Shown piece by piece: positions 26,376 to 56,521 of a stretch of DNA of 64,000 nucleotides (positions within the stretch are counted from its first letter, which is position 1; the number at the start of each line of letters is the position of its first letter). The notes under the pieces are model-generated. The model saw only the letters and a program-made list of their open reading frames with translations, had not been told where the DNA came from and searched no databases. The stretch lies in assembly GCA_949358305.1 (NCBI GenBank), contig OX442315.1, positions 1,550,001-1,614,000 of the forward strand, given 5' to 3'. Source of the DNA: Strigamia acuminata (lineage: Eukaryota > Arthropoda > Chilopoda > Geophilomorpha > Linotaeniidae). A program made the translations under genes and the position numbers.

Positions 26376-26447
26376 TAGTGGCGGCCCAGTGGTTAAGGCA
26401 ATGGACTAGGAATCTTTCCACACAGGTTCAAATCCTGTTGTCTGTGA
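26376..26447 (+). repeat. tRNA-Ser-like sequence, left arm, copy 2
   Basis: Same as 21983-22054. Confidence 0.6.
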
Positions 26448-26610
26448 AAATTTTTGCTTTTATTTTTTATTTATTTTTAGCAGTAAAGTTAATGTTTGTT
26501 ATTTTATATTTGTTTTTAAAAAAATTTAATATAATTAATTTTAATTTTTTAACAAATATAAAATTACAAACATTAACTTTACTGCTAAAAATAAATAAAA
26601 ATAAATTTTC

Positions 26611-26682
26611 ATAGACAACAGGATTTGAACCTGTGTAGAAAGATTCCTGGTTCATTGCCTTAACCACTGGGCCACCACTACA
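26611..26682 (-). repeat. tRNA-Ser-like sequence, right arm, copy 2
   Basis: Same as 22218-22289, inverted relative to 26376. Confidence 0.6.
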
Positions 26683-27339: not shown

Positions 27340-27434
27340 ATCAACAAGTTCATTTATCGAATCCAAAAATGCAATTGGTTTTTAAATTTGACGAAACGAA
27401 TCTTGGCAACAGATGTTCAAATCCGCAAATTAAG
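27340..27434 (+). CDS. Gene B exon 2, copy 2
   Basis: Same 95-base exon as 22947-23041. Lying nearer to exon 3, this copy would be the one spliced to it if the gene is transcribed from the second exon 1. Confidence 0.72.
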
Positions 27435-27623
27435 GTGAATTTTTAGTAAAGGGGGAGCTGTCATTAGGCTGACAAACATAAGTATTAATGGGTGAACGAA
27501 CACTATTGCTGTTTCTGCTTACTCTACTCTTATGAATTCACAAATAATTCAGCTTGTTTTGAGTTATTGGAAATGACTACTTTTATAATTCCAAATCCTA
27601 AGAAAATTATTTTTACACCAGTT

Positions 27624-28211
27624 TGTGACTGGTATGGTCTTCGCTAGTGCAAACAGGGGACTGCAGACACTAGTTTGGGATGCACACTCACTTAAATAAC
27701 GAGAACTCCCCTAATATTGGTTGGTTGGCCTTTATTAGTGTTGTCTAGGGGTATGGGGAATCCCGCTACCCGTTGCGGGGGTGCCACGAAGGCACGCCGC
27801 ACTGGCAACCGACCCGTCACACACTGGGCGTGAGTCCAATGGGTGACGTGGTCGGTTCGACTAAACATTCGTGTCGTACTTACCTACGACCCGCGTATCC
27901 GCTCATGGAGGCTGCGCTATGGAATCCGCCATAGCACTGAGCATCAACGTGGTGAATGGTGAGGAGTACAGAATCCAGCCGGGACACGTCTTGTCTCCTA
28001 GATGAATACCTTTCTCCTCGGGAGCTAATGCGGACACGTCCTTCTCCGTGTCCAGCAACACACACACACTACTCTCCACTCTTCTCCCCACCACACCACT
28101 CCACTCTCTCCTCCCCGGGCTAGGTCAATCACCCTCACAGGGGTTGACCTTTGGGGCCGTATGGCGGTGTGTGGCAGTGCCGCAGGTCACCCAGGTGGTC
28201 TGACGGTCACA
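27624..28211 (-). mobile_element. Solo LTR of the Gypsy-like family (588 bp)
   Basis: TGTGACTGG...GGTCACA flanked by AGTT at 27620-27623 and 28212-28215. Gene C intron 2 has the uninterrupted site (TTTACACCAATTG at about 40850). It contains the family marker GTTGTCTAGG in the same direction as the full elements. Confidence 0.85.
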
Positions 28212-31127: not shown

Positions 31128-31739
31128 TGTCGTAACCTTGGTTCCGGTAAATAAACTTAACGCAATATCTTACTAATAACACCCTTTATTTCACACTTGT
31201 AATAATACAATAATGATACTTAACAATGTGGTCTCGGATCCTTGTTGGCGGATACGATTTGTTGCTGCACGGCAGTCTTACACGTGGCTTCTACTGTTGT
31301 CTAGGGTAATGGCGTCTGGCGAAACACGTGTTCGCAAACGCTTCGCTTCGGGAGATATTACAATCGTAGTATTGCTACGATAATATCTGTGACTTCTGAT
31401 TTATAGATGTAATTGGCAACGGGCATCGATCCTCTATCAATCCGGTAAAACGGCCTGACGGTGAGGTGGTGATGCTAATGTTGCTCTGGTATCTCTAAAG
31501 TGTCGGTTTCCGGTCAGACACGGGTTTAAATAGGGGCTGGACCGGAAATGACGTATTTGCATAAATTCGGGGAATTATACAAATTTATGACGTTGTCACG
31601 TCAGTCCCGCAGAAACGGTAAAACTAGTATAGCTAGTTTTCCCGCAATAATCTGACAATCATTTTACTATCAATATTAAAATTACTATTTATTAGGTTAT
31701 GATTAATTAAAACACTTTTGTGACCTCGTGGTCACCACA
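31128..31739 (-). repeat. 3' LTR of the non-autonomous element (612 bp)
   Basis: TGTCGTAACC...GTCACCACA on the + strand. Minus-strand AATAAA lies near 31183-31188. Confidence 0.9.
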
Positions 31740-31752
31740 CGTCCCCTCCTCA
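31740..31752 (-). other. Polypurine tract of the non-autonomous element
   Basis: The minus strand reads TGAGGAGGGGACG next to the 3' LTR. Confidence 0.65.
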
Positions 31753-31812
31753 GCAATGTTGTTGGGGGATTTACAATAAAACGACAAACATTGCGAAAAC
31801 TCAAAGTCAGAT

Positions 31813-34383
31813 TTAGTTCACTTCTTTTTCAGATGATCCCTGAGGAACGTCCGGAGGCGGAGGTGGAGGTAATTCTTCGGATACAGGTGGTTTAGCCATC
31901 TCCGAAGTTGCTGGAGTTATTGGTTTGGCGATCGGCAAAATCGAGGTGAGACGTGATGAACGATCACTCGGGTCTTCGAACTCCCCGATGAAGTATCGAT
32001 CGTGGCCGCCAACTGGTTCGTAGGGGGCGCCGACTCGTTCGTGTACCCAGATACGCGAGAGGAAGGGAGCCAGGCCTTGATTGGTATGGTGGATCTTCTG
32101 GGCCTCGGTCGGATTCGTCGGGGCGCGATGGGCACGCAGCAGACGTTGGTGCTGAATGAAATCGACGCCTGGACCCGCCTCTAGAGTTCGCTCCATCCAT
32201 AAGTAGAGCGAGTGGCCGTGGTCGCTCGATCGCTTGATCTGGTTCTTCGTCTTCTGGGTCATCGTCAAACTCGGGTAGTAGTGTTTGAGTTGTGCGTCGA
32301 TCGGAGGCAAAGGTTTCGGCTCTAATTTTTTCTTGGGCCGCAGGATCTTCGGTTTTGTTTTCGTCTTTCGGACGACTACTTTCACGCCTTCGATCGGAAC
32401 CAGTCCTTCGGGGAACTTTATCGTCTCCTCTGGAGTGGCTGCTGGGACTGTCTGGCTTGCCGGAGTTTCAGGAAGGGGTTCGTTGGTTAGTACAACCGGT
32501 TCGCTTTGTGGTACAGCCACAGCTCGGACTACCTGATACGATCGTTCTGGGTCGGCATCTTCTGCAATTAATTGCGCGCGAACCTGGATACAGGAAGGAA
32601 CCAATTTTAGCCATCGCTCGACGAGAGCGGGAGGCAGCTGAAAACTCTCATGCGCAACGACCGCCCAGGCTGCCAGTGCCACGCGGGCGTTTCTAAACGT
32701 AGACGCGGCCAGCACCAGCGACATCATGTCGGTGATTATGACCGTCGTCCGTGCCATTCGTGACGGGTGATCTCGTCCAGGGCTGTTGGTGAATTCGATG
32801 GCCGCACTTCGGATATTCGTCACTGCGATCTGCATCGTTCTGGCTTGGTAGTCATCGATGTCGGACACCATCTCTTTTGCTTGCTCGATCGTGGTTGTAT
32901 CGAGGAACGACTGTAATTCATACGACGTCGGGTCAAACTGGGTTGTGGCTCGAGTGTCCGAAGATCTGTTATTGGGGGGTGGTCTTGAAGGCGTTTGATT
33001 GCTTTCGTCGATTCTAACCACGGTATCTTGTCTTGAGTTAATTAAAACTCGTTGAACGTCGGGTTCGGGCTCATCCCAAACAATCGGTGTTCTCAACGTC
33101 GAAGTCTCGCTTCGTGTTTCTTCCGGTACGGCTGGGAAAATTGGTCCAAAACGATCTTGTCGTCGTTTGAGTTGTTCAAAGGGACTCAGCGATGTCGGGG
33201 CTCCGATGACCACAGTTTTTCGGAATGCGCTGGGCAGACTAGAAGGCACGCTGGTGGCTGGCTTCGTCGGTGCTTTGATGAACACGCTTGGCACCGAAGT
33301 TATGCTCATTTCGATCGATTTAGTCGGCCGGTAGACAGACTTCGATTGTTCATTCTTGGCTTTCAGGACTGCTGCTACCATGTCGGCTTCGGTATATTTT
33401 CTCTCTTGTTCCGGTACGATCATCGGCTCTACCGATTGTTCGTCTTCGATTGTCATCGGCACTTCTTGACGAACTTCTACTTGTAAAGTCTCTACCTCAT
33501 CGACTCCGCGTGATTTCTCAAAGTGTCTCCATGTTTCTGCTCGTGGCCTCGACAACCTGAGACATCCGCGTTGGTTCGGTCGATTTCTGGAGTAGCGGTA
33601 TGTCTCGACCTCCCGTGGCTTCTCGACTCTGGGCTCTCGTCGCGGCGAGGGTTCTCGAGCGTGTCGGTAATAAACTCGAGGATGAGACTGCGATCGATCG
33701 TGCGTGTTGTACGACGTGCTTGGCTGATCCAGGCGTCGTCGCTTGTTGTCGTGTGTGTGATTTAATAATTCGCTCGAGAGTCGCTTCTCCGCTTTCTGTC
33801 GCTTGCGCCCAAAGATGCCCAGGTAGTGGAGCTGGTGCATCGCTTTCTGTGAGGTGATAAATCCGTGTTCGGGTCGCCAATTGGGAACGTCTGGTCTTTC
33901 TCCTCGAACCTGGCTTAACCAAGTTTTTATCTCATCTGTCGAATACCCTGCTGGTTTCAGTATTTTGAAGAGATCTCGATACGCCGTTCGTCTGACTTCG
34001 TTGTAATAGTCTCTGTGTATTTGTCGGCGTTCTTCGTCTGTAGCGGCGTTCTGCCACTTCTCGAGGACGGCCCACTCTTCGGACCCGCTTGGATAGTCCT
34101 TTTCCAAAAACTTGTTTGGGAGCGGTGCTGGTGCGTCGTCGCGTTCTGGAATTTCAGCCCTCAGTGCGTCGCGCATTTTTTCTGGGAAGTAGTGTATCAG
34201 GGTCTCCTGGCTCGCCCAGAATCGCGATCGGGCTCTGGATGCGGTGAGCCGAATGCGCCATAGGCCGGCGTCGACGTCGTCTTCTAACGCTCTTCGAAAT
34301 GGAGTCGGGATCTCGCTCCTCCAGAGTGTGCCCGAAGATACGTTTTGTGGATCGATGGGTCCCCACGTAAGTTGGTGTTCCGG
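31813..34383 (-). CDS. Third-ORF homologue in the non-autonomous element (about 856 codons)
   Basis: The first ATG is at 34176 (787 aa), but the frame is open upstream and that part is homologous: TWGPIDP, a W-R-I-R motif and FPEKMRDAL line up with TWGPLDP, WRLRI and FPEGMREGI of the 921-aa ORF. I therefore start it at the splice acceptor TTCATTCCTCAG (34388-34384), phase 0 as in the larger element; the start codon must come from an upstream exon. Conserved features are WRPEHGFITSQ, a basic stretch GRKRQKAEKR...NKRRR, and the C-terminal QRLLRAHRAP, WVHER and FEDPSDRSS. No membrane span or recognised domain. Function unknown; survival of this frame when gag-pol is gone suggests it matters for the element. 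Confidence 0.75.
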   Translation of the reverse strand, partial: PEHQLTWGPIDPQNVSSGTLWRSEIPTPFRRALEDDVDAGLWRIRLTASRARSRFWASQETLIHYFPEKMRDALRAEIPERDDAPAPLPNKFLEKDYPSGSEEWAVLEKWQNAATDEERRQIHRDYYNEVRRTAYRDLFKILKPAGYSTDEIKTWLSQVRGERPDVPNWRPEHGFITSQKAMHQLHYLGIFGRKRQKAEKRLSSELLNHTHDNKRRRLDQPSTSYNTHDRSQSHPRVYYRHAREPSPRREPRVEKPREVETYRYSRNRPNQRGCLRLSRPRAETWRHFEKSRGVDEVETLQVEVRQEVPMTIEDEQSVEPMIVPEQERKYTEADMVAAVLKAKNEQSKSVYRPTKSIEMSITSVPSVFIKAPTKPATSVPSSLPSAFRKTVVIGAPTSLSPFEQLKRRQDRFGPIFPAVPEETRSETSTLRTPIVWDEPEPDVQRVLINSRQDTVVRIDESNQTPSRPPPNNRSSDTRATTQFDPTSYELQSFLDTTTIEQAKEMVSDIDDYQARTMQIAVTNIRSAAIEFTNSPGRDHPSRMARTTVIITDMMSLVLAASTFRNARVALAAWAVVAHESFQLPPALVERWLKLVPSCIQVRAQLIAEDADPERSYQVVRAVAVPQSEPVVLTNEPLPETPASQTVPAATPEETIKFPEGLVPIEGVKVVVRKTKTKPKILRPKKKLEPKPLPPIDAQLKHYYPSLTMTQKTKNQIKRSSDHGHSLYLWMERTLEAGPGVDFIQHQRLLRAHRAPTNPTEAQKIHHTNQGLAPFLSRIWVHERVGAPYEPVGGHDRYFIGEFEDPSDRSSRLTSILPIAKPITPATSEMAKPPVSEELPPPPPPDVPQGSSEKEVN

Positions 34384-34994
34384 CTGAGGAATGAATAATA
34401 AAATTAGATTTTGTCACATTCCGAATTTGGATTCAAGATGGCGCTATGGTCGACCATGTGCTTTTTTACACGTGTTGAATCTTTTAATAAAGGTTTTTTC
34501 GTAATTTTTTTGTATTGTTGAAATAACGATGTTTTCTTTTTACGAATATTGCTTCACGTGTTTCTCGTGGTTTAGCCACGAATTAAATTCTTTGTTAAGT
34601 TTACCTTTTCGTTACTATCGGGCTTTTCCCGATTCTCTTCTGGTTCAACCTCGTCCCATCTTGCGGGATCGTTCCACTCGTCTTCGCTTGGGTCCCGATC
34701 CATTTCTTCCTCCTCGTTGTCGGGTGATTGTTTCCAGTTTCTTCGCATTTTTGATTTAATTAGTTGGTTGCGATTTTTATCAAGCACCTGTTGTCGTCGT
34801 GACAGAACGCGGAGTGCAAAGTTGAAAGGGTAGTCGAGGTTAAGTATCTTGATTGGCTTTCGTATGTAATACGTAGTTGATTGTTGGAGTCTCCTTGTGA
34901 TTGTTTTTGTCCCTAGGAGGTCGGGGTAATTACGTCATATTGTTTTGTCGCTTTTGATTGGTTATGCCAACCATTTTGGATTTTTCTTGCTTTA
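34384..34994 (-). other. Spacer upstream of the third ORF in the non-autonomous element
   Basis: Equivalent in position to the 1.4-kb spacer of the 13.5-kb element. An open frame of 71 codons at 34572-34787 is acidic and unsupported; I see no conserved gene. Confidence 0.5.
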
Positions 34995-35570
34995 TCATGT
35001 CCTCCCGGTGATTTTACCGTCCTTTATAAACGGGTTTGGTACCTTTTTTCTTGTACTTTGTCGTATCATTGAATCGGCCTCGCTTTCGTTGTCCGCGTCG
35101 GAACTGGTTTGGGTCGAATCGTACGAGTCGGTTGTTTGGCCACCGGTCTTTTGGCGTTTGATGCTCCTTTTTCCCCGTCTGGCAGCTCGTTTTTCTGCTC
35201 GTTCCCTGGTTAGACGAAGTATTATTTCCATCTGGGCCAGGGGATCTCCATTTTCATCGAATGGTATTCCTTCTAACCGAGCGATTGTATAAGCTTCCAA
35301 ACATTGATTGATTTGAGATCGCGTCGAATTATATCCATGTTGAATGGTTACTCGATTATGTTGAGCTCCGTCGTCCTGGTCAAATAGGCTAAACCCGTCT
35401 TGACTTTTGTCGGATTGGTTATCGTTTATCGGTGGGTTAGGCTCTACACTCTTCGGCGTCTTTTCAATCGGTGTTTTGCCGACGGCCGTTTTCTCGACGT
35501 GGCTCGACGTCTTGGTAACTCGGTTTCTTTCTACGGGTTCCGGCGGCGTCGTATTTAACTTCGGGCTGGC
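34995..35570 (-). pseudogene. Pol C-terminal remnant
   Basis: The open frame ends NPFIKDGKITGRT, matching the last residues of Pol in the 13.5-kb element (NPFIKGGKVVGKK). It shows a charged linker and no enzyme motif. There is no ATG at its upstream end; it overlaps the 70-codon frame at 35464-35676 by about 107 bases in another phase, so the two may be read together through a frameshift or represent a deletion scar. Confidence 0.6.
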
Positions 35571-35676
35571 TTAACGCTTCGGCTGCTGCCTTGGCTTTTT
35601 CCATGGCGGCTTTTCGGGCGCTTGCGGTCGAAGGTTTTCGGTTCTTATTACTTTTCGTCATTTCGTTGGTTTGCAA
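35464..35676 (-). pseudogene. Short 5' ORF, probable Gag N-terminal remnant
   Basis: 70 codons, Lys/Arg/Ala-rich (MTKSNKNRKPSTASARKAAM), at the position where Gag begins in the larger element. The link to Gag is by position and composition only. Confidence 0.45.
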
Positions 35677-35727
35677 AGTTCAAACCGTAAGATATGTTTA
35701 TTTAAAATAGTTTGAATGTTCTAAACT

Positions 35728-35745
35728 ATCCCGGACAGACCCCCA
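35728..35745 (-). other. Primer-binding site, proline-tRNA-like
   Basis: TGGGGGTCTGTCCGGGAT on the minus strand, two bases inside the LTR; it differs at one base from the site at 20228. Confidence 0.7.
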
Positions 35746-35747
35746 CG

Positions 35748-36359
35748 TGTCGTAACCTTGGTTCCGGTAAATAAACTTAACGCAATATCTTACTAATAAC
35801 ACCCTTTATTTCACACTTGTAATAATACAATAATGATACTTAACAATGTGGTCTCGGATCCTTGTTGGCGGATACGATTTGTTGCTGCACGGCAGTCTTA
35901 CACGTGGCTTCTACTGTTGTCTAGGGTAATGGCGTCTGGCGAAACACGTGTTCGCAAACGCTTCGCTTCGGGAGATATTACAATCGTAGTATTGCTACGA
36001 TAATATCTGTGACTTCTGATTTATAGATGTAATTGGCAACGGGCATCGATCCTCTATCAATCCGGTAAAACGGCCTGACGGTGAGGTGGTGATGCTAATG
36101 TTGCTCTGGTATCTATAAAGTGTCGGTTTCCGGTCAGACACGGGTTTAAATAGGGGCTGGACCGGAAATGACGTATTTGCATAAATTCGGGGAATTATAC
36201 AAATTTATGACGTTGTCACGTCAGTCCCGCAGAAACGGTAAAACTAGTATAGCTAGTTTTCCCGCAATAATCTGACAATCATTTTACTATCAATATTAAA
36301 ATTACTATTTATTAGGTTATGATTAATTAAAACACTTTTGTGACCTCGTGGTCACCACA
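35748..36359 (-). repeat. 5' LTR of the non-autonomous element (612 bp)
   Basis: Pairs with 31128-31739; one difference seen. Confidence 0.9.
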
Positions 36360-36363
36360 AAGT

Positions 36364-36979
36364 GTCTTCTTACGGCATCATTGCCTTTTTCTGCGATTTA
36401 GGAGGAAACATTGGACTCACTCTCGGAGTGTCTTGTCTCATGATTGCTGAAATGACCATCATGTTAATCACTTTGATTCGTAGAAACATAAAGAGATATA
36501 AGATGGAACGGTCAGCTCATTCCACCTTTTTTGTAGACAAAGTGGAGAAATGTCTTAAGAAATATGCAGACACGAGCAAAGAAGATTTGGCCAACAGTTT
36601 TCAACTGCCAGGCATACAATACATCTTGACCCGAGAAAATGAAGGTCATGGCAGAAAGTACTTGGGGCTTTTTCTCATTGTTTTAGCAAGTTTTGTCTGC
36701 GGCTTTCAAATTTATGATCGCATCGCGTATTACTTGTCTTATCCGAAAGCCGTGACTGTAAAGATGAATGCACTTGAAGACATCGAACTTCCAAGTGTTG
36801 TTCTATGCTTGGAGAGTGGTAAACTGGCCTTGAAAAAGAAGAAACACATGAAAGAGAATGGAATCACTGGTTGTCCTGATGATTTTGATATGTTAAACAT
36901 GGTGAATGACGAGTTATCGCTCGACCAATTGTGGATTTGGTCTAGAATGGGCTCCAACTTTATGGCTGGAACAAAAAAT
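36364..36979 (+). pseudogene. Gene B exon 5, right part: TM2 of module 1, linker, TM1 of module 2
   Basis: Open throughout from TM2 (IGLTLGVSCLMIAEM, filter GVS) through the linker to TM1 (GLFLIVLASFVCGFQ) and LPSVVLC, ending at donor GTATAT. The frame continues exactly from 31127 once the insertion and the duplicated AAGT are discounted, confirming the recent break. Confidence 0.8.
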
Positions 36980-37028
36980 GTATATAATTCAAACAGTTCA
37001 AGCTGTTTTATCCGGCATTGGTGTAACC

Positions 37029-37352
37029 CAGGGGTCGGCAACTTGCGGCTCTTTCGATGTCAAGATGCGGCTCACCAGGATAGAAACACTCAACAGAGAA
37101 CAGTGAGAAAAGGTGGAGTAGAGAGTAGACAGACAGCTGACAGCCGCTTGGGAACCAGGCCCAACCCTACAGCCGTGCTATGAGCTGACATATTTAAAGC
37201 TATTTATTTTAAATCAAAAATCAAATTTATATACCTAATCCTAATCAAATACCATAATATTGAAACAAAAATGTTAGTGGCTCTTTAAGAACTGGGAAAT
37301 TTTGTAAATTGTAACTTTTGGCTCTTTCGTCTCAAAAGGTTGCCGACCCCTG
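37029..37352. mobile_element. hAT-like MITE (324 bp)
   Basis: Ends CAGGGGTCGGCAAC / GTTGCCGACCCCTG with an exact 8-bp target duplication GTGTAACC (37021-37028 and 37353-37360). 8-bp duplications and CAGGG ends are typical of hAT transposons. Too short for a transposase. Sits in intron 5 of gene B. Confidence 0.88.
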
Positions 37353-41285: not shown

Positions 41286-41863
41286 GTTGGTTGACTAATG
41301 TTTGGTTGCAGTTTAAAGATTTATTCACAATTTTGTTCGCATTTCATTTGGAAATGATGTGATGGGGATACGGTCTGACCCGCCATGGTATGGGGATTTA
41401 CCACGGTGGGAGGGACACATACATCATGTATTAACAAGATAGGGACTCAGATTGTTGGGTTTTGGCCTTTAATCGTTGTCTAGGGGTTGGGTCACCTATC
41501 TTACTGTGTGGCTGTGCTGTTAGGCACGCTACACCCGCATCCGACTTGTCACACACAGGGCGTGAGCCCCATGAGTGACGTGGTCGGTCGCGTTGAACGA
41601 ACATTCTGCCGTACTTACCCGTACGACTCATGTAGCCGCTCATGGAGGCTGCAGCAGGCACATCTTTCTGCTACTGAGCGTCACAGTGGTGAATGGTGAG
41701 AGCAGCAGAGTAAGCAGTTGTCTCTGCTGTGGTTGGGACCGTGGCAGCTCACCTTGCCACGTCTTCACCCTCGACTCTTTCAGCAACGTCTCTACCTCAC
41801 CACACCACTCAACTCCTTCCTCCCCTGCTAGGCCGGTCCTCTCCTCCAAGAGGAGGATGGCTT

Positions 41864-42350
41864 TGTTGGGTTGCAAACCCATTTTGTGGTGCCTAAACAT
41901 TTGTTTCTGTGTTGCGTGATTTGTTAGTTACACACTTTCTGAATATGTGTAACAAGCATGCTATAATGTAATGTCCCGATGTTGTTTTTCAACCGATTCC
42001 GATTTTTATCAATGCCTGTTACGTACCGCGGTTGAATACTTTATTCTTTATAGCATGCGCCCACGATATCGTCTGCTCGAAAGAGTGAGTCTTGTTTTAT
42101 CATTATCGCTTGTTTATCAAATGCCAGTGTTTTATTTACTTTTGAATGTAAAGGACAAATCATTGATAATGTAACAATGATTTATCCTATGTTGATATGG
42201 AGGGCAAATAGCCTCCAACCGTGTACTGTCTCTAACGATTCTCACGAATTAAACATGGCGGACGCATTGTCGGCATCCCGCTCATTTTTAACCCGTTTAG
42301 CAGTTATTTCTCATGGATTCTGGCCAGGAAATTCTCCACAGGTCTCTTCA
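41864..42350 (+). repeat. 5' LTR of the Copia element (487 bp)
   Basis: TGTTGGGTTGCAAACCC...GGTCTCTTCA. Confidence 0.92.
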
Positions 42351-42352: not shown

Positions 42353-42367
42353 TGGTAGCAGAGGATC
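42353..42367 (+). other. Primer-binding site, initiator Met-tRNA type
   Basis: TGGTAGCAGAGGATC, complementary to the 3' end of initiator tRNA-Met, two bases after the LTR. Confidence 0.8.
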
Positions 42368-43623
42368 AAAACGATCCTGTTAGGAAGTTTTTGAAGAGTT
42401 GCACGACAATTTTTCAACGGTGTGAAGTCGCGAAGGTCGCGCCCGCCCAGTTCGTCGCAAAAACGAATTTTTCGGTGCGGTAATCGTCGTTGGAACGTGT
42501 GCGGAGAACTGTACGGGTATTATCGAACTATTATTTGTGTCTTTCAACGCGAAAATAAGCGTTGTCAACGTTTTGGCGTCGTACGATCAAACGACGGTCA
42601 TTCTCGTGCATTACGAGTTGCGGCGAAGCCTAACCGCCGAGTGTGTGCTTCGAGACGTCGTAGGATCATTTCGGGACGGTTGTGTGCTCAAATAAGCAAC
42701 AACCGAGATACCAAGGACGGTAGGAACAATTGTCGATTTTCTTTTGGCGAAATAAGCCATTTTTTCAAACGAATCCACGCCCGATGAAACACAAGATGGC
42801 GGCGGCCATCGTTCATCGTGTCTGCGTTTGACCACGGACGTTTTCGAGTAGTTTTGGGATACCCAGCGCTGGAATTTAACATTGTTGGATACCATTACGA
42901 TCGTGGGAAGGATAACCGACAATCGGCGGAATTTTCGAAGCGTTATTTACGTCGCTACGACGAATTTCGAGCGACGAGCGAACGTTTAGCAAACGAGACG
43001 AGTTTGCCGACAATTTCAAGAGGAAACCCTGGTTTAGCACATAGGGTGCACCAGTTGAGAGGGATTCTCCTCACATTAGCACCCCGGCGTGCGTGTGAGT
43101 TAATTCGACGGCGACGAGGTGAAATACCGTCATTTTTCCCCTCGTTTTGTGCGACGTGCGCATACGAGAAGGCACGCCAGCCCATTTCCGTGCAGGATCA
43201 ACGTTTTGCGGCGTGGGATCTCATCACGGAAGCCACCTTCACACCGACAGTGTACATTTATTTATTATCTCGTGAAACTTTGTATAGTTTTAAGGTTTTT
43301 GTTTTTTCCCTTGTTAGAATCGGTGCCACCCTACGTCCAGTCGGGCACGTGGCACTGTATTCTTTGCTGGGCTTATTCACGGCCACCCAACCATCCCGCG
43401 AGCCTAGGCGCTACGAACGGAAAAGTTGGGGAATTGCCAGCAAAGGTTATCTAATCTCACTTATTGAGATTCCCCGGGTTGTACTGCATTATTCGCCTTC
43501 ACTTTTGGGGGTGACATTTGTGCAAGTGTTGTGAATTTCAGTGAAGTGTTTGTGCGGAATAATTTCCGAAATTGTGATTTCTTCGCGCAATTTTCACCGG
43601 AATAGCGTTTTTGTGTCTCCGCG
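42368..43623 (+). other. Untranslated leader of the Copia element
   Basis: About 1.25 kb between primer site and gag. Several short frames (e.g. one of 238 codons at 42818-43534) show no gag, protease or other recognisable motif and I do not call them genes. Confidence 0.55.
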
Positions 43624-45309
43624 ATGGCTTCTAATAGGCATGATGACTATAAAGATGTCAAGAAGCTCGACGGCACGAACTATGCAACATGGGCGGTGCA
43701 GATTCAACTTCTGCTCAAATACAACGGTGTCTGGGGCCACGTGAACGGCACAGAGCCGAAATTGCCGGACACAGCGACGGCAAAGGAAAAAAGAGAATTT
43801 AATGTCCGGGAAGACAAAGCCATGTCTACGTTGTGCATGAGTTGCGCCGAACCGCAACAGGTCATAGCCGTTGCCTGCCCCACTGCTGCAAAAGTATGGG
43901 AGGCGTTGAAAGCGGCTTACCAGCCGACAACGAGAGCACGTCGGGCTCGTCTTCGCCGCGAATTTCTCAATTTGAAACTGCTAGAGAATGAAGAAATGTT
44001 GGTTTTCACCGGAAAAGTGGATCGAAAAGTCACTGAGCTGAAAGACGTAAAGATAGAAGTATCTGATGAGTTCTTAGCATTTCAATACTTGGACCTTTTG
44101 CCCCCGCAATATGAGGCTGTGAAGCAAACTGCATACCACTGGGGCGATGCAGAGTTCACAGCCCAAAATGTCAAAGACAGGTTGCTTGGCGAATACAATC
44201 GCCTTTATGAGCAAAACAACGAGTTTGGCGTCGTACAAAGTGCAGTAGACAACGCAAATGCATTTTTTGGCAAAAGCAACTGGAAACCTCGAGGGAAAAC
44301 TTCGAATTCGGCAGGGTTTCAGCGTGGCACGTGTTTTACTTGTGGCGGAACAGGCCACTTCGCCCGCGAATGCCCCTCGCCGCCGAAACAAGGGACATTT
44401 GCTTCTAATGTCAGCTCACCTGCCCAATCGAAACGTGGGGGTGGTCGTGGCAAAGGACGAGGAAAGAGCCAGCAAAGGGCCAATCTTACCCAAATACACA
44501 AGCTTGAAGACGAACCGCTTACGTTGTATTCTGCAGTTTTGGACGAGGCCCCGGCACAACCGTTGTCTCTTGTGTCGCACGGACAATTTGACTCGCAGTG
44601 GTACGTGGACACAGGAGCAACGGACCACTTTTTCTTCAACCGGAACTGGTTCTCCGAGTATAAGCCTTTGTCCAACTTCAGTGTGTTACAAGGAGAAGGC
44701 AAATCGAAGATCGAAGGGGTCGGCAACATTGTTCTTACCTCACTTTATGGAAACAAACAAAGGAAAATAACTTTGGAAAACGTTTATTATGCGCCGAATT
44801 TCCGCAAGAATCTAATCTCGCTAGGGCGCACCGACGAAGCGGGGTTGTGCACATTTGTCAAGAATGGGAAAATGTCGATTTATATGAACAAGATCGAGGA
44901 GCCATCGATCACGGCAGTTAGAACAAGCGATAGGCTGTATAAAGTCAGCTGCCGTATCGAGGCTAAGAATGTAAACACGGCTGCATTAACTGCGCAACAG
45001 AATGCAGCTGCTGTCCTCGACTTGATCAAGTCATCTGTAAAGGATGAAAAATTTGTACAACCGTTACTAACCATGCTTAACTATAAGTCCGCTTTACTAA
45101 ACAGTTCGAGCAAGTCGGATAAGAGAAAATCCGCACCAAATTTGATTGCGCAAGTGAGCGAAACAGCTAAGACAAACGCGCCTACGGCGATTACTTTGAC
45201 AAAGACGGGAAATGAGGTTCAAATACCTCCTGCGAATTTTCCCCAAGCAAATGCGAATGCGAAAGTTAATGGGAATTTGACCAAAGTAACAGTGAAAAAC
45301 AAAGAGTAG
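43624..45309 (+). CDS. gag: Gag and protease region of the Copia element, 561 aa
   Basis: MASNRHDDYKDVKKLDGTNY is a typical Copia Gag start (LxGxNYxxW). The Gag core ends near 200, the zinc knuckle CFTCGGTGHFAREC is at 237-250, a Gly/Arg-rich basic stretch at 270-285, and the protease active site D329-T-G (WYVDTGATDH). The frame ends at a TAG just before the integrase His motif; the intact relative at 60848 has no stop there, so I take it as a mutation rather than a programmed stop. Confidence 0.88.
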   Translation: MASNRHDDYKDVKKLDGTNYATWAVQIQLLLKYNGVWGHVNGTEPKLPDTATAKEKREFNVREDKAMSTLCMSCAEPQQVIAVACPTAAKVWEALKAAYQPTTRARRARLRREFLNLKLLENEEMLVFTGKVDRKVTELKDVKIEVSDEFLAFQYLDLLPPQYEAVKQTAYHWGDAEFTAQNVKDRLLGEYNRLYEQNNEFGVVQSAVDNANAFFGKSNWKPRGKTSNSAGFQRGTCFTCGGTGHFARECPSPPKQGTFASNVSSPAQSKRGGGRGKGRGKSQQRANLTQIHKLEDEPLTLYSAVLDEAPAQPLSLVSHGQFDSQWYVDTGATDHFFFNRNWFSEYKPLSNFSVLQGEGKSKIEGVGNIVLTSLYGNKQRKITLENVYYAPNFRKNLISLGRTDEAGLCTFVKNGKMSIYMNKIEEPSITAVRTSDRLYKVSCRIEAKNVNTAALTAQQNAAAVLDLIKSSVKDEKFVQPLLTMLNYKSALLNSSSKSDKRKSAPNLIAQVSETAKTNAPTAITLTKTGNEVQIPPANFPQANANAKVNGNLTKVTVKNKE

Positions 45310-46152
45310 CCACAGACCATGGACACATGGCACTCGAGGATGGGGCATCTGAATGCTAAGGGCATCTCCCACTTGGAAAAATTGGAAGATGTTTTCGGGA
45401 TTAGCATCTCAGACAGAAATTTGTCAACATGCGACGCATGTGCATGTGCGAAGAGCACGAGGGCGAGTTTTCCCCCTATTATTGCTATCTCTACGCAAGA
45501 GATTCTGGCCCTTGTACACATGGACGTGTGGGGCGCGTCACAGGAAACATCCCTGGGTGGGGCCAATTTTTACTTCATCCTAGTGGATGACTATTCACGT
45601 TATATGTGGATAATTACGATGAAGACCAAGGGGGAAGTTTTGGGCCATTTCAAACGTTGGTTAACGGAAATAGAACGAACAACGGGCAAAAAAGTGAAAT
45701 GTATCAAAACAGACAATGGCGGGGAGTTCATTTCCAGGAATTGGGACGATTATGCGTCGAAAATTGGATTGAAGTGCATTCGCACAAACGCATACTCTCC
45801 GGAAATGAATTCCGTGGCCGAAAGGGCCAACCGTACCATTGTTAGCGGGGTTAGGGCTTTAATGATCGAGAACAGTTTCCCCTATCCCCTTTGGGCTGAA
45901 TTGGCGACGACAGTCGTATACTTGAAAAACAGGTTTCCACATGCGGGGATTGAGGGGAAAACCCCTTACACAGTATTTTTCGACAAGAAATTGTCCCTAC
46001 GCCACATTAAATGTATTGGATCGAAAACTTTCGTCCACATCCCGTCCCAAGTCCGCAAAGGCAAATTACAAGGAAGGGCGTGGGCGGGAGCTTTGATTGG
46101 ATATGCAATATCCACAAGGGGCTACAGGATCTGGGATCCCGTACGGAACTAA
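45310..46152 (+). pseudogene. Integrase region of the Copia element
   Basis: Same frame as gag after the TAG. WHSRMGHL begins the zinc-binding His/Cys domain (CDACACAKS); the catalytic triad is in MDVWGAS, KTDNGGEF and NSVAERANR. The frame ends at TAA (46150) after YRIWDPVRN, but the same frame continues with coding character (VFASKHVRIFED...) to about 46460. Confidence 0.85.
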
Positions 46153-46481
46153 GTATTTGCGTCCAAACATGTACGCATTTTTGAGGATTCTTTTTGGTAT
46201 GAAGTGGGCAAGAGATTGCACCACCCACAGAGTGGATATAAGGAACCTGGATATTTTGCGGGTTCTCCTTCTGAAACCGAAGACGACGATGATGATTCCA
46301 TTGCCCCTGCCGAAGAAACGGAAGAAGAGGTTCAGGAAGTGGTTGTTGTCCCACCCCCTGCCCAACCTCCTGCTCAACCCCCTGCTCTGAAAACAAAACC
46401 TGCATTACCCACAACCCCAAAGCCCGCTTTTAGGCCTGAATTGAGACCACAGGTCAAGCAGGCGGCACAACTGCAGAGGAT
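46153..46481 (+). pseudogene. Integrase-RT linker of the Copia element
   Basis: Acidic and proline-rich (SETEDDDDDSIAPAEETEEE, PPPAQPPAQPPAL). The coding frame changes near 46460-46481. Confidence 0.6.
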
Positions 46482-48260
46482 TTGGTCGGGGATGATGAAC
46501 GTGATGGGTATAATCCGATTGAAGAAATTGGGGGGGCGAAGGGGGATAATGAAGAATTTTTCAACATTTATCCCGAAGACGATGAGGAAGTCGAACTTCC
46601 TCCGGGAATACAAGCCCGTCGCGGTTCGGGCAAAAGGGGTAAAGTCAAAGAAGCCCCAGACCCAATGTTGTTGCCGCTGGACATGACCAAGTGGAGACGA
46701 GTTGCGTCAGTCCGTAAAGCCGGGGCAACTGCGGGAAAAGTTGATGTAGTCTATTTCTCACCCAATGAGGATAAATTGAGAAGTCGAACGGATGTTGCAC
46801 GGTGGTGCGACGGAGAAGGCTATGCCTACGTCCCGGAACTTTTCGACTTCAAAACCGTTGACGGTGAAGAGCCCTTACCTTTTGCGGGGTTTTGCGCAGT
46901 TGAGCCTGACACCTACGAGGAGGCGATTGGGGGCATCAACAAACCCTATTGGGAAGGGGCCATGAAGGACGAGATAGATATTTTTGATGAGCGAGAAGTC
47001 TATCGCGAAATTGACAAGCCTAAAGACGTACAGCTTTTGGGGACAAAATGGATATATAAAATGAAGCGCGACCATACTGGAGTCATTAGACGTTATCGAG
47101 CTCGTTTAGTGGCCCAGGGATTTAAACAGAGGCCCGGAATTGACTTTACTGAAGTATTTTCTCCAGTTGTCAACTTCGTCCTCGTAATCGTCTTTTTCTG
47201 CACTTTGGTAGTGCTTAAGGGTTGGCGCGACGTGCACATCGATATTAAGGCTGCCTACCTCTATGGCGACCTCGATACAGTGCAATATTGTGAAGTCCCC
47301 AAGGGCTACAGAACATCGAAGAACCGACATAAATGTTGGATGCTGCTGAAGGCTTTATATGGTCTGCATCAGAGCGGACGGATGTGGTACCAGGTACTTC
47401 ACGACCGTCTGCTCCAACTGGGATTTGTACCGATGTTGGGATTAAATTGTGTCTATTCTCTGGACAACGAGGCCGTAATCGTCTTTTACGTGGACGACAT
47501 TGTTCTCTTCTCAAGAGACGATTACGTTGCGAAATGCGTTCTCAAATGGATTCGAAGTTTCTTCGACATTGTCGACTTGGGTCCGGTGACCCTATTGTTG
47601 GGTATCGAGTTCGACAGATCGGGGGGGCGAATCCGAATTCACCAGAGAAGGTACATAGAGAAGTTGTGTAAAATGTACGGAGTGGATCCGTGTCACCGCG
47701 TGAAAGTCCCGGGGACCCCGGGTACGATGATCCAAAAGGTCAAAGCTGGTGAGCGGGTTAACACCTCATTTCCGTACAGGAACTTGGTCGGAAGTCTTCT
47801 GTTTGTTGCGAGCAGGACAAGGCCTGATATCTTATTCTCGGTCATTGCCCTCTCGCAATATAACGAAACTCATTCTGCGCGTCATGTGGGCATGCTAATG
47901 CAAATTTTGCGATATTGGGGAAACACACCCGACTACGCCATTGATTTATCGAATTGCAAGAACGATTCACTCACAGTCTACACTGACGCGTCCTTTGCCC
48001 TGGACCAAGACAAAAGAAGGAGCTTTGGGGGCCATATAGTATATCTAGGGGGAGTTCCGATCTCGTGGAACTGCCGTAAGCAGACGATAACCTCCCTGTC
48101 GATCATGGAGAGTGAATTTCTGGCCGTGGTCGATGGGGTGAAGGATATTATATGGCTTCATCGGCTATACGACGCAGACATTATGTTCTGCGTTGATCGG
48201 TGCGTGTACGCCATGCGTGTACGCCGACTCTATGCCGGCGATCCAGTACACAAAGAATAG
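46482..48260 (+). pseudogene. MBD-like domain, reverse transcriptase and RNase H of the Copia element, 592 codons
   Basis: Residues about 70-125 (46689-46856) match a methyl-CpG-binding domain: RKAGATAGK, DVVYFSP, KLRSR, and FDFKT spaced as in MBD proteins. RT follows: LLGTKWIYKMK, the D-containing HIDIKAAYLYGDL, YGLHQSGRMWY and the catalytic YVDDIVLF. RNase H has YTDASFALD and SIMESEF. The frame is lost at a 13-bp tandem duplication (48201-48226) and resumes in another phase at about 48227 (VYADSMPAIQYTKNR...ADVLTKWLAK) to a stop at 48447. The MBD lies between integrase and RT, where Copia elements normally have an unstructured linker. Confidence 0.85.
46689..46856 (+). other. Methyl-CpG-binding-like domain inside Copia pol
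   Basis: Against the known MBD pattern (family knowledge, MeCP2 numbering): Arg111 corresponds to R78, Asp121 to D88, Arg133 to R100, with the AGK turn and the C-terminal FDF retained. The methyl-contacting Tyr123 position is Val (V90), the kind of change that weakens methyl preference in MBD3. DNA contact is therefore plausible; methyl specificity is not assured. Confidence 0.8.
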
Positions 48261-48447
48261 AATAGAGAACCGTGCTAATAAACATATAGATGTCAAATTG
48301 CATTTCGTCCGTGATTGGTTCGAGAAGGGCACGTTCTCTATTAAGCATATCGCAGGGGTTTTGAACGTGGCAGATGTTTTAACCAAGTGGTTAGCGAAAC
48401 CAAGGTTAAACACTCTTTGCGAACACATTTTTGTCGTAAATAAATAG
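48227..48447 (+). pseudogene. RNase H C-terminal end of the Copia element
   Basis: Continues the RNase H/C-terminal region after the 13-bp duplication: IQYTKNRIENRANKHIDVK and FVRDWFEKGTFSIKHIAG are the usual Copia C-terminal motifs. Stop at 48445-48447. Confidence 0.75.
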
Positions 48448-48465
48448 TTTAGGCAAAGGGGGATT

Positions 48466-48958
48466 TGTTGGGTTGCAAACCCATTTTGTGGTGCCTAAAC
48501 ATTTGTTTCTGTGTTGCGTGATTTGTTAGTTACACACTTTCTGAATATGTGTAACAAGCATGCTATAATGTAATGTCCCGATGTTGTTTTTCAACCGATT
48601 CCGATTTTTATCAATGCCTGTTACGTACCGCGGTTGAATACTTTATTCTTTATAGCATGCGCCCACGATATCGTCTGCTCGAAAGAGTGAGTCTTGTTTT
48701 ATCATTATCGCTTGTTTATCGATTATAAATGCCGGTGTTTTATTTACTTTTGAATGTAAAGGACAAATCATTGATAATGTAACAATGATTTATCCTATGT
48801 TGATATGGAGGGCAAATAGCCTCCAACCGTGTACTGTCTCTAACGATTCTCACGAATTAAACATGGCGGACGCATTGTCGGCATCCCGCTCATTTTTAAC
48901 CCGTTTAGCAGTTATTTCTCATGGATTCTGGCCAGGAAATTCTCCACAGGTCTCTTCA
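48466..48958 (+). repeat. 3' LTR of the Copia element (493 bp)
   Basis: Same as 41864-42350 except for GATTAT inserted near 48720 and one A/G change. Confidence 0.92.
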
Positions 48959-49120
48959 GGCTTGGGGCCACCAGGCGGTGTGTGGAGTGATGTAGGCCAC
49001 TAGGGTGGCCAAATGGTCACAATGATTGAAGCCTTTTTCAAAGCATTTAGTTGGGGATTTTCAGTAATTGATGAGTCAAAGATGAGAAGTGAATAATTTG
49101 TCGCCTTTTCTTACACATAG

Positions 49121-49973
49121 GTTGCCATTCATGTCTGGCTTTGATGAATTGCCGGAATGCGAAGAAAATTATAATAACGTAATGTTGAAAGCTTCGAACG
49201 CTTTCTTTGGACTTTGGAAAGCAAATGCCTCAACAGACACTTGCAAATGTATCGCTCCTTGTAAGAAAGAAATAATCTCCAATCGTATGATAATAGAAGA
49301 GCAATCTGGATCGACCGTGCGAGTCAAAGTGATCGATTCAATAAGAATCGCCAAAGAAGTGGCTTGTTACGACATCATTGCTTTTTTCTGCGATTTAGGA
49401 GGAAACGTTGGACTCACTCTTGGAGTGTCTTGTCTCATGATTGCTGAAATGACCATCATGTTAATCACTTTGATTCGTAGAAATATAAAGAGATATAAGA
49501 TGGAACGGTCGTCTCATTCCACCTTTTTTGAAGACAAAGTGGAAAGATGTCTTAAGAAATGTGTAGACACAAGCAAAGATTTGGCCACCAGTTTTCAACT
49601 GCCAGGCATGCAGTACATCTTGACCCGAGAAAATGAAAGACGTGGCAGGAAGTACTTGTGGATTTTTCTCATCATGCTCTCAAGTTCTGTACGCGGCTTT
49701 CAAATATACGACCGCATAGCGTATTTCTTATCCTATCCGACTTCTGTGTCTGTAAAGATGAATGCACTTGAAGACATCCAACTTCCAAGTGTTGTTCTAT
49801 GCTTGGACAGGGGAAAACTGGCCTTGAAAAAGAAGAACTACATGGAAGAGAATGGAATCACTGGTTGTCCTGATGATTTTGATATGTTAAACATGGTGAA
49901 TGACAATGTATCGCTCGACCAATTGTGGAGTTGGTCTAGAACGGGGTCCAACTTTATGGTTGTAACAAAAAAT
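49121..49973 (+). CDS. Gene C exon 5: fusion exon
   Basis: Acceptor TTACACATAG, donor GTATAG. The order is the same as in gene A: CKCIAPC, TM2 with VGLTLGVSCLMIAEM, charged linker, TM1 (WIFLIMLSSSVRGFQ), LPSVVLC. No stop across the module junction. Arg replaces Cys in the TM1 stretch (SSSVRGF versus SSFVCGF). Confidence 0.8.
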
Positions 49974-50103
49974 GTATAGAATTCAAACAGTTCAAGCTGT
50001 TTTATCCTGCATTGGAGCAACCAAAAGCTGTATTAACCACAATCTGATGTGCACAACTCTTGGTTGTGACTATAAGACGGTTGAATATTTAATTGTCCTA
50101 GAT

Positions 50104-51965: not shown

Positions 51966-52168
51966 TGTTAGAATGAGAAATAAATGTCCACTCATCACTT
52001 AGATAAACAAACAAACTGGTATAATGTCCAAAATAGTTTCAAAGTACACACAAGCGCTTCGCGCTGATTTACACGACAATCATCACGTACAAACAATCCC
52101 ACAATGCTTAGCAATACAAACATGTAATCTCTAACCCAGTATAATTATACATGAAAAACTCTCTAACA
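51966..52168 (-). repeat. 3' LTR of the minus-strand Copia (203 bp)
   Basis: TGTTAGAATGAG...CTCTAACA; ends are self-complementary. Confidence 0.9.
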
Positions 52169-52225
52169 AATTCCCCCCTTGTTATTATAATTATGCAAAC
52201 ATTTAAAAACAACACTTTCAATAAT

Positions 52226-52855
52226 TCAAACACTACTGTTCATTAAAATGTTCATGACTTCTTTGATTTTTACTCCAGACAAATTCTTGGTTAAGAAATC
52301 CGCTAATTGGTCTTCTCCTGGAATATGTTTCACTTCCACTTGTTGGCTTGTAATCAGGTCTTTAGCCAAATTTACTCTTCTATTCAAAAATTTTGTTCGC
52401 ATCTTGTGCGTCCCTTCAGTCATTAGTGTTATCACATTCAAACTGTCACAATAAATTTTTCCTTTTCCCTGCAAATCTTCTTTATTCAAATCCTTAATTA
52501 AATCTCTGTGCCAGATCAGTTCTTTGATGCCTTCATGAAATGCTTCCAATTCGCTTTCGGTCGTTGATTGTGCTACGAATTTCTGTTTCTTTGATTTCCA
52601 ATGAATTAAGTCTTTACCATACAAAACTAATAATCCCGAAAATGATTTGCTGTCCAACGTTTTATCCCAGCTAGCATCAGTAAATACTTCTAATGTCTTT
52701 CCTTCACTTCCGTACGTGATGCCATAATTTTCAGTTCCTTTGAGATAACGTAGAACTCTTTTTAATCCTTCCAGATGAATTTCTCTCGGTTCCTGGTTGT
52801 AACGCGATAAGTTTCCTAGCGTGAAACTTAGATCTGGTCTGGTGTGCGTTGCCAA
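52226..52855 (-). pseudogene. RNase H region of the minus-strand Copia
   Basis: THTRPDLSFTLGNLSRY, FTDASWDK, TTESELEAF, then KHIPGEDQLADFLTKNL: a complete Copia RNase H/C-terminus. Its frame joins the preceding pol frame by one base, lost or gained in the A run near 52889-52894. Confidence 0.85.
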
Positions 52856-52869
52856 GTATAGTAATCTTC

Positions 52870-55467
52870 CTAACAGTTCTTGGTAGATTTTTTATCCGTT
52901 TTTTGGCTTTCTTGGCATTCATCAATGTTTTGGTTTGGTTCTCCCGGCGACTTTGCGCCGTTGCATTTGTCTAGGCTGTACATTTCCAGTAATTTCTGTA
53001 CGTAAGCTTTCTGATGCACGAAAATTTTTCCTTCTGTTTGTTCTAGTTGCATTCCTAAAACAGTTTTCGCGTCTCCTAGGGTAACTAGGTTTACTGCATT
53101 TCTTAGTTTTTCCAAAATCTTGTTTTCAAATGTTATATTGCTTGCCACTGATAACATGTCATCCACGTGTAATCCAATTATCATATAATTTACTTCAATG
53201 AATATATAATACAAGCATTCATCATCCTTGGATTGCTTTAGTCCCATTGATTTCGCGTTTTGTTGTGTTTCGTCTTCATCTGTGTTGTCATCATCTTCTG
53301 TGGTGTTTCTATTATTTTCTTGTATCTCGTTGTTTGTCTCTGTATTTTCCTCATCAATGTTCTCTCCATTTTCTGATAATTGTTCATTATCCCCGTTGCT
53401 ACCTTCTTCTAGATTGTGCTCATCTTGATTGTTAATTTCAGCTTGTTCATCTGTATACAGATCAATGGTTTCTTCTTCATCTGAACTGTCATCAGCCGTG
53501 GGTGGTGCTGTTTTGTCTTCTTTCTTTTTGTTTTTCCATCTGTGTACGCCATTTTCTGTCTCGTCAAATTTTACATCTGATGTTTCCCTCACACAGTCTG
53601 CTTTGATATCATAAATTCTGTAGGCTTTTCTGTTCGTCGCATAGCCAATAAATACTCCTATTGTTGATCTGTCATCCAATTTCTTCTTTTTTCTTTTATC
53701 CAACATGAATGCTGTGCACCCAAATCTCTTAAAATAAGCTACGCTGGGTTTGTATTCAGACCACACTTCTTCCGGCGTCAATCCGTGTATTTTGGTTACA
53801 CAATGATTTCGAATTTTCATCGCTGTAAGTGCCGCCTCGCCCCAAAAATATTTCGGCAATTCTGAGTCCTTTAGTAAACACCGGATCATTTCCATTATTG
53901 TTCTATTCTGTCTTTCAACGACGCTATTGCTCTCGGGCGTGAATGCTGTCGTCAGCTGGTGATGTATTCCTCTGTCCGTCAACCATTTTTCAAATACATC
54001 TGATGTGAATTCACCTCCGTTGTCTGATCTGAGAAATTTTATTTTCTTCTCTTTTTGTCGTTCCCATCTTTCAATTAATGTCTTTATGGCATTTTCCGCT
54101 TCATTCTTGTGTTTCAACAATGTTATGTCCATTTTTCTCGAAAAATCATCGACTATAATCATTATGTATTTTTTTCCCGTGGGTGTTTTAGGATTCAAAG
54201 GTCCCATCAAGTCTACGTGTAACAATTCGTTTACTGCTGTCGATTGTCTCTCATTTATTTCTTTTCGCGGCCGTTTTGTCATTTTACTCATTATGCACAC
54301 GTCGCATATTTGGTTTTCCGGTCCATCTTTGTATTCTAACCCTCTCACAGCGTTTTTGTTCCTCATCTCATCTATTGAACGGAAATTTACATGTCCCATT
54401 CTGCAATGCCATGTTTTAATTTTTTCTTTGGCTGTAAATCCGCTTTCCATTGATTGTGCTTGAGTTTTGATAATATATCTGTCGCCTATTCGCTTCCCAC
54501 GCATCGCATAATCATTGAATGCAATTTCCACTTCAGTTTTATGTGCAATTCGTACCTCTTCCTTGTCATACACAACCACAAAATCGTTATCTGTCATTTT
54601 TGGCACAGATAATAAATTGTCTGAGATTCCTGGCACGTATAAAACATTTTTTAGTAATGTTTCTATTCTTCCTTCATCATGGCTAATTTTCATGTCTCCA
54701 ATTGCATCGGTATTCGTGATTCCTGATGCAGTTTCAATTTCCCTGCCATCTGCACGCACATTTATCAACAAATCACGTTCTTTTGTAATGTGGCTTGTTG
54801 CCCCCGAATCTGATATCCACTCAATATGGTGTTCTTTCTCATCTGTTCTTTCTTGTATTTCTTTTACCATCATTGATCTTTCTATTTTCAATTCTTTATC
54901 ATCTTTCACACAGTTGCAAATCTTGATTTTTTGCCCTGTTGCAACTAAAGTTTCATGTGGGATCAGGTCGCCATCTTTGTTTCTCTTAAATTCAGTTTTC
55001 CATATTTTTTCAGCTATTTCTTCACAAATATGCTTGTTTGGCTTCCCAACTGCTGTCATCACGTTTTGTTTCTGGCCTCTTCCTCTTCCTCTATTTCCAA
55101 AGTTTCCTCTTCCTCTGCCACGACCTCTGTTGCTGTCACTGTCGGGTTTTTTCTCATCTTTGCAGTCTGCTGCCAAATGCCCTGGCCGTCCGCAATTGTA
55201 ACATTTTTGTTTGCTGCGACAATCTCGTTTGTAGTGGCCCCTGCCTGAGCAGTTATAGCAAATTATATTTCTGTTCTCCCTGGCTTTTTGTATGTTCTCT
55301 GTGGGTTTTTTCTCGTTATTTTGTTTTTCCCCTTCGCACAGCTTTAGCCCGCTTCTTAAATCGGCCATTTGTAATCCTTTTTGAAAATTCAATGCTTGTT
55401 TAGCGTTCTGGAACTCTCTTCTCAGTCCATTCTTTATGTGAAAGATTAACTCTGTTTCTTCCATCAC
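52870..55467 (-). pseudogene. Late Gag, protease, integrase and RT remnant of the minus-strand Copia
   Basis: Two zinc knuckles in a row (CYNCSGRGHYKRDC, CYNCGRPGHLAADC), protease WISDSGATSH, integrase WHCRMGH...CDVC, VDLMGP, RSDNGGEF and NSVVERQNR, then an acidic Glu/Asn-rich linker. RT is represented only by GLKQSKDDECLYY...LHVDDMLSV; the fingers and the first catalytic Asp region are gone, with the frame still open across the deletion near 53250. Confidence 0.88.
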
Positions 55468-56117
55468 TCCTCCAGCTTGTAAATAGCATTGTCGTAATCC
55501 TTGTGTAATCCTTGTGTACAGTAGTCATCCACGGTTTCATGTTTTTCCATTGTTATATGTGAAACCGCATAGTTCGCCTCTATTTTTGTTTTTTCTGTTG
55601 TACTCTGCATGTCTTCTTCTATTTTTTTCCATAATTTTTTAGCATACTTTTCATGCATATATATCATCTGTTTACTCTCACTCATGTTGTCTATTAACAT
55701 CATTTTTGCCTTTGCATTTTTGTCGTCATAGTCATTCCAAGCCTTGTCTTCATCGTCTCCTTTCACTTTTCCTTGTGGCGGTTCATCTTCTATGATTACT
55801 GGTTTCCACAATTTTTTCCCTCTTAAATGGTCTTCTAAACGACAGGCCCACAGTGCATAATTTTGATCAGTAAGTGCGGGAATTCCGTACGTGTTTTCTT
55901 TACGGTGCGCCATCTTGTGGTCCTCTTCACTACTACTTGATGTGATTTCCTCGATGCTATCCGTGTTGCTTTTTCTATTATCACTGCTTGATGTGGTTTC
56001 CTCCTCACTGCTGCTTGATGCACTTTCTTCTTCTGTTTCCACTAACTTTCGTAGCTCAGATAAAAGTCTATTGTCCTCCCAAAAGCTCATCCGTGCCCGC
56101 TTTATGCACGCTTCCAC
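55464..56117 (-). pseudogene. Gag N-terminal part of the minus-strand Copia
   Basis: Ser/Glu-rich N-terminus, then a Copia Gag core (LTDQNYALWACRLEDHLR). It runs into another frame at 55464; an 11-bp tandem duplication (55495-55505 / 55506-55516) lies just before the break and its length accounts for the phase change. Confidence 0.8.
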
Positions 56118-56206
56118 TGGTTGGTTTCGGTTTTCGTTTTACTGCTTTTTCTAACCTTTTTTCCTCCACAGTGTTGAGTTTCAGCAAGTTCCTTCCTCTG
56201 CTACCA

Positions 56207-56409
56207 TGTTAGAATGAGAAATAAATGTCCACTCATCACTTAGATAAACAAACAAACTGGTATAATGTCCAAAATAGTTTCAAAGTACACACAAGCGCTT
56301 CGCGCTGATTTACACGACAATCATCACGTACAAACAATCCCACAATGCTTAGCAATACAAACATGTAATCTCTAACCCAGTATAATTATACATGAAAAAT
56401 TCTCTAACA
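56207..56409 (-). repeat. 5' LTR of the minus-strand Copia (203 bp)
   Basis: Pairs with 51966-52168. Confidence 0.9.
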
Positions 56410-56521
56410 CAATCTGAGGTAGAAGAAGTGACTTTCACTTTCCTTCCTTTCCTCATAGTCACTTTTTATTGAATGCACTTACTTTAGCACCAGACTTCCC
56501 TTACTTAGCACTAGCCTTCGC

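Follow-up and report, generated by a model that had tools for sequence, protein, structure and literature searches.

A methyl-CpG-binding domain between integrase and reverse transcriptase in Ty1/Copia elements of the centipede Strigamia acuminata

The locus described here raises the question of whether a methyl-CpG-binding domain (MBD) has become part of the polyprotein of a Ty1/Copia retrotransposon and, if so, what such a domain would do for the element. It lies on chromosome 2 (37.79 Mb) of the centipede Strigamia acuminata, within a stretch of 64,000 nucleotides that was analysed as a whole and is referred to below as the window. An earlier note, made from the sequence alone, had pointed to an MBD-like segment at this place and had suggested that it could guide integration.

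Architecture of the element and identity of its MBD

The MBD of the window is carried by a broken but structurally complete Ty1/Copia copy with LTRs, gag, integrase and an RVT_2-type reverse transcriptase (RT); the features of this copy are collected in Table 1. The two LTRs are 98.4% identical over 498 columns, which include 6 gap columns and a few columns just beyond the LTR, and their ends agree with those of the LTRs of the near relatives L045 and L046. The primer-binding-site-like sequence, which is presumably complementary to the 3' end of the initiator Met tRNA, starts 3 bases past the matched 5' LTR end in L036, L038, L039, L045, L046 and L047. The window copy differs from L046 at 198 of 6,882 aligned bases. 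Its coding region is broken by two stops and by shifts of frame within the linker and close to the C-terminus, while many relatives have one long frame: the gag and protease-side frame stops at a TAG, near relatives having a single longer frame, and the integrase frame is closed by the second stop. A Pfam scan of the linker frame (46153-46686) returned no family.

Table 1. Features of the MBD-bearing Ty1/Copia copy, in window positions
Feature	Position	Strand	Basis or remark
Target-site duplication, left	41859..41863	.	5 bp GGCTT; identical GGCTT after the 3' LTR
5' LTR (TGTTGGG...TCTTCA)	41864..42350	+	Self-alignment against the 3' LTR
Primer-binding-site-like TGGTAGCAGAG	42353..42363	+	Sequence reading
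Gag and protease-side frame: Retrotran_gag_2, CCHC knuckle, Pol_BBD	43606..45309	+	Pfam E 4e-28, 2e-7, 5e-21
Integrase frame: GAG-pre-integrase, rve, SH3-like	45310..46152	+	Pfam E 1e-8, 8e-9, 2e-15
Linker, acidic and proline-rich by eye	46153..46652	+	Reading frame shifts within it in the window copy
MBD domain	46689..46856	+	PF01429 E 7e-12; PDB match to MBD2; fold
Reverse transcriptase RVT_2	46995..47711	+	Pfam E 2.6e-55, residues 186-424 of the 46440 frame
Pol C-terminal frame (RNase H side)	48142..48447	+	After a further frame shift; assigned by frame position
Polypurine-tract-like AAAGGGGGA	48455..48463	+	By eye, upstream of the 3' LTR
3' LTR	48466..48958	+	Self-alignment
Target-site duplication, right	48959..48963	.	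GGCTT

Both checks that the earlier note had proposed for the domain, a Pfam profile search and a structure prediction, bear out its reading of a true MBD. The Pfam MBD profile scores 45.2 bits on an 84-aa segment, well over its cut-off of 21 bits; a sequence search of the PDB matched the segment to MBD2, and the fold of its AlphaFold2 model matches those of MBD4, MBD2 and MeCP2. The fold does not single out one MBD family over another as the nearest kin, the best rows being tied. The domain is flanked by the SH3-like domain upstream and RVT_2 downstream, as assigned by Pfam, so that its identity and its position between integrase and RT, as the note had described them, are established. The pair of CpG-contact Arg residues and the Asp, which the note had listed as kept, are indeed retained in the window copy; both Arg and the Asp are also invariant in 13 of the 13 rows of alignment A2, where we equate them with the MeCP2-numbered residues. 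The domain is like the host proteins MBD2 and MBD3 in sequence, in fold and in both Arg and the Asp, and differs from them in being embedded in a retrotransposon polyprotein.

Several other features occupy the same window. A second, young Ty1/Copia element lies on the minus strand at 51966-56413, with LTRs that are 99.0% identical and with gag, integrase, SH3, partial RT and RNase H; a Pfam scan of its pieces gave no MBD match, and it constitutes a natural non-MBD comparison. A Gypsy-type element (12998-20205, minus strand) has an intact pol frame of 1,376 aa and an overlapping upstream frame of 1,037 aa. A direct repeat of 2,345 bases (21265-23609 and 25658-28002), 100% identical and 2 kb apart, is either a pair of very long LTRs or the product of a duplication that is recent. 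At 31128-36359, an LTR-like pair of 612 bases (99.8% identical) surrounds an 866-aa minus-strand frame (31813-34413) that resembles by eye a 929-aa frame at 8821-11610, for which a Pfam scan gave no match at E 0.01; the two frames possibly belong to an undescribed element family. Three frames (1788-2771, 36344-37183 and 49086-49979) are alike by eye, and the last of these is an ASC (DEG/ENaC channel) sequence by Pfam (E 8e-15). With one frame scored and two assigned by eye, they are apparently a local gene-family expansion interspersed with retrotransposons.

MBD-bearing lineages, selection and a published relative

The genome assembly searched (GCA_949358305.1) comprises 237,517,015 bases. 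Both genome searches were queried with MBD-containing pieces, so their counts cover MBD-bearing copies only and therefore cannot give the number of relatives without the domain. Among the best 150 of 1,424 candidates, all 150 match a 180-aa MBD-containing piece at 61-100% identity without internal stops, and an open frame of at least 1,500 aa is present in 113 of 148 of these best-match rows. A search of the genome with the PF01429 profile, in which the best 150 of 1,092 matches were scored, added further Copia lineages. In L040, L033, L034 and L031 a single frame encodes SH3_retrovirus, the MBD and RVT_2 in that order, and in a minus-strand fragment of L044 the MBD precedes RVT_2; the short frames L032 and L035 show the MBD only. 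In six intact representatives of clades A-F the domain sits 264-270 residues ahead of the YVDD motif of RT. Several distant Copia lineages of the S. acuminata genome therefore share an MBD at the same place, and the conservation in related copies that the earlier note had proposed to check is found both in the 150 best matches and in the lineages of L040, L033, L034 and L031. In L044, the distant MBD-bearing Copia fragment (6313-7149, minus strand) has a Tyr pocket; an Ile-pocket MBD is encoded about 2.3 kb away on the opposite strand.

Searches of a set of 5.8 billion proteins, which may be poor in arthropod genomes, gave 168 candidates for the MBD region of clade C, none of them at E 1e-3, and 70 candidates for that of the Tyr-pocket clade H, none of them at E 1. 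Given that possible scarcity, these empty searches are not taken as absence outside S. acuminata.

To what extent the domain is maintained was assessed from dN/dS in seven pairs among the intact representatives of clades A-F. The ratio was 0.05-0.09 for the MBD in four of the seven pairs (three not computable, and one of the four with a dS of 3.0, near saturation), 0.03-0.06 for RT in three (four not computable), and 0.20-0.41 for the upstream linker in six (one not computable), with linker values of 0.20-0.31 in the five pairs within clades A-D. In all seven pairs dN of the MBD was lower than that of the linker, and in six it was higher than that of RT, by up to about 4 times. The MBD is therefore under purifying selection that is looser than that on the polymerase core and stricter than that on the linker.

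The earlier note knew of no Copia family with such a domain. This part of it does not stand: the capture of an MBD by an arthropod retrotransposon family is reported in a 2019 paper (de Mendoza, Pflueger and Lister, 2019, Genome Res; PMC6673714), and a second-hand passage citing that paper among others locates copia in CpG-dense regions. The S. acuminata element has the defining trait of this family, a Copia polyprotein with an internal MBD in an arthropod host, and most likely represents this kind of element in a sister species. The published elements are said to be named CopiaMBD and to come from Strigamia maritima; their MBD reportedly binds methylated CpG-dense DNA, and their young copies are said to lie in CpG-dense regions, with an enrichment over other LTR elements. 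Common to the two is a captured MBD in the Copia pol of centipedes of the same genus, the S. maritima side being known to us by report; they differ in species, and for the clade of the S. acuminata window Val in place of Tyr is noted here. A broader parallel is provided by the DNMT-bearing retrotransposons of dinoflagellates and charophytes, in which, according to published work (PMC5890265), a host DNA-methylation protein has likewise been captured. There the captured protein is a writer, whereas the element described here has taken up a reader, and the elements and hosts are different.

The methyl-contact position

In MBDs, according to published work, two conserved Arg read CpG and a conserved Tyr confers methyl selectivity; in human MBD3 this Tyr is replaced by Phe and methyl selectivity is much lower (PMC5240623). 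The window copy has Val in this pocket where MBD2 has Tyr, in agreement with the earlier note. Among the 15 Copia-type rows of alignment A1, of which L032 and L035 are counted as Copia-type by likeness only, the position is occupied by Val in five (the window and clades A-D), Trp in one (clade F), Ile in two (clade E) and Tyr in seven (L033, L034, L040, L031, the minus strand of L044, L032 and L035); L033/L034 and L031/L032 are near pairs among these seven. The sixteenth row, taken as a host-gene exon, has Thr. Val was present in 30 of the 30 copy rows read, which come from 29 places and include the window's own. The best 150 of the 1,092 PF01429 matches look mostly Tyr-less, as judged from representatives, frame lengths and equal scores in a ranked list of which most rows are unread.

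In a tree built from the RT of the window and of 10 representatives (11 rows in all), a branch with a support of 98/98 separates the nine Val, Trp or Ile rows from the Tyr rows of G and H. A single loss of the Tyr therefore fits the tree, though both Tyr rows are long-branched. The MBD by itself is too short for its tree to be resolved (0 of 10 inner branches starred). The occurrence of Tyr-pocket Copia copies beside a Val/Trp/Ile branch that includes the window is a possible addition of the present analysis to the 2019 report.

As read from the sequence, a methyl pocket with Val speaks against a strong preference for methyl-CpG, and the selectivity of the window's clade is doubtful because its pocket residue is not Tyr. 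Owing to this replacement, the clade (with Ile or Trp in its sister clades) is predicted to discriminate less strongly between CpG with and without methylation, much as human MBD3 does. One could go further and suppose that a single branch lost the Tyr once, to Val, Ile or Trp, that its reader of methyl-CpG thereby became a CpG tether indifferent to methylation, and that it was this branch which came to fill the centipede genome; we put this forward tentatively, and regard it as somewhat doubtful.

CpG content, insertion sites and the role of the domain

The host has two DNMT1-type loci (C1:30368704 and C3:35919211), which match DNMT1 in the PDB, and the search for DNA methylases gave further matches besides these. 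A host MBD2/3 gene was not recognised among the PF01429 profile rows that were read; the exon in L043 passes PF01429 and resembles by eye a TAM domain of BAZ2 type. The Copia-MBD elements are themselves CpG-rich, with observed/expected ratios of 1.00-1.19 and 5.3-6.6 CpG per 100 bases in seven whole or near-whole slices. CpG decay was not seen in the window copy when it was compared with L046: 20 of 420 CpG of L046 (two mutable bases each) are TG or CA in the window, against 23 of 1,061 other C that are T; in the reverse direction the count is 22 of 426.

The surroundings of the insertions were assessed from the 300 bases of 3' flank at 31 insertions (20 of clade B, 3 of A, and 2 each of C, D, E and F), with 20 random stretches of 300 bases for comparison. 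The flanks contain on average about 5.4 CpG per 100 bases (5.6 in the first 20 and 5.1 in the other 11), against 3.0 in the random stretches (Mann-Whitney p 0.005). Their G+C content is likewise higher, with means of about 43.6% against 34.6% and medians of 43.7% and 43.3% against 33.5% (p 0.0001). The CpG observed/expected ratio did not differ between the 31 flanks and the 20 random stretches (p 0.26), and there was no gradient of CpG toward the insertion point between 0-150 and 340-490 bases (p 0.66). Some of the flanks are repeats in their own right: seven of the 31 align with one part or another of the window, and two flanks match one another. The CpG-denser flanks agree with insertion into CpG-dense DNA; as the CpG excess follows G+C and shows no local rise, they are explained equally well by insertion or survival in G+C-rich, TE-rich DNA.

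Taken together, we read the window as containing a broken Ty1/Copia copy whose polyprotein carries an MBD between integrase and RT, a domain that probably tethers the integration complex to CpG-rich centipede DNA. Tethering to CpG for integration is the best-supported mechanism, in part by way of the published relative. After reverse transcription, the MBD would stay joined to integrase, or would remain beside it as a cleavage product; it would touch CpG sites through its two conserved Arg and so bias the site of cDNA insertion, a role like that proposed for the chromodomains of chromoviruses. Chromoviruses are Ty3/Gypsy elements with a chromodomain at the end of integrase (cf. Gao et al., 2008). 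The two cases are alike in having a chromatin- or DNA-reading domain that adjoins integrase and has a proposed role in guiding insertion; they differ in that a Gypsy element there carries a chromodomain reading histone tails, and a Copia element here an MBD reading DNA.

Selection on the domain would likewise be maintained if the MBD served to counter host silencing, by competing with, or acting as a decoy for, MBD2/3-type readers on the methylated, CpG-rich DNA of the element, such that methylated copies stay transcribed. The high CpG content of the elements and the DNMT1-type genes of the host would suit such a use. The position of the MBD beside integrase in the polyprotein, however, would seem better suited to integration than to competition in the nucleus; in the rows read, the clades with most copies are without the methyl-sensing Tyr, which would be odd for a decoy of methyl-CpG readers, and no CpG decay of the kind expected under heavy methylation in the germline was seen in the window copy. 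We therefore consider a role against silencing unlikely.

The absence of the methyl-contact Tyr from the Val/Ile/Trp clade, together with flanks whose CpG observed/expected ratio is not above random and has no local peak, may instead be taken to mean that the MBD has turned into a general DNA clamp or a structural spacer, employed for example in cDNA binding, integrase multimerisation or nuclear retention, and makes no use of CpG. Against this, the CpG-reading Arg pair and the Asp are kept throughout A2, and the MBD has a slower rate of evolution than the linker, as would be expected if contact with CpG still matters; loss of CpG reading thus appears improbable. In favour of a chance match, or of an inconsequential acquisition by a single copy, nothing was found except that the window copy is broken; this reading is ruled out by the Pfam E of 7e-12, the fold match, the many copies and the purifying selection, and its probability is negligible.

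The published capture of a DNA-methylation reader by a retrotransposon is now extended to a chromosome-level genome. Since MBDs with a Tyr pocket and MBDs without it occur in one genome, with purifying selection on the domain, the choice of sites by methylation or by CpG only becomes testable there. Should the single loss of the Tyr and the subsequent spread of its branch prove true, the coexistence of Tyr-pocket and Val-pocket elements would amount to a natural experiment on the gain that a retrotransposon draws from reading, or from ignoring, the methylation of its host.
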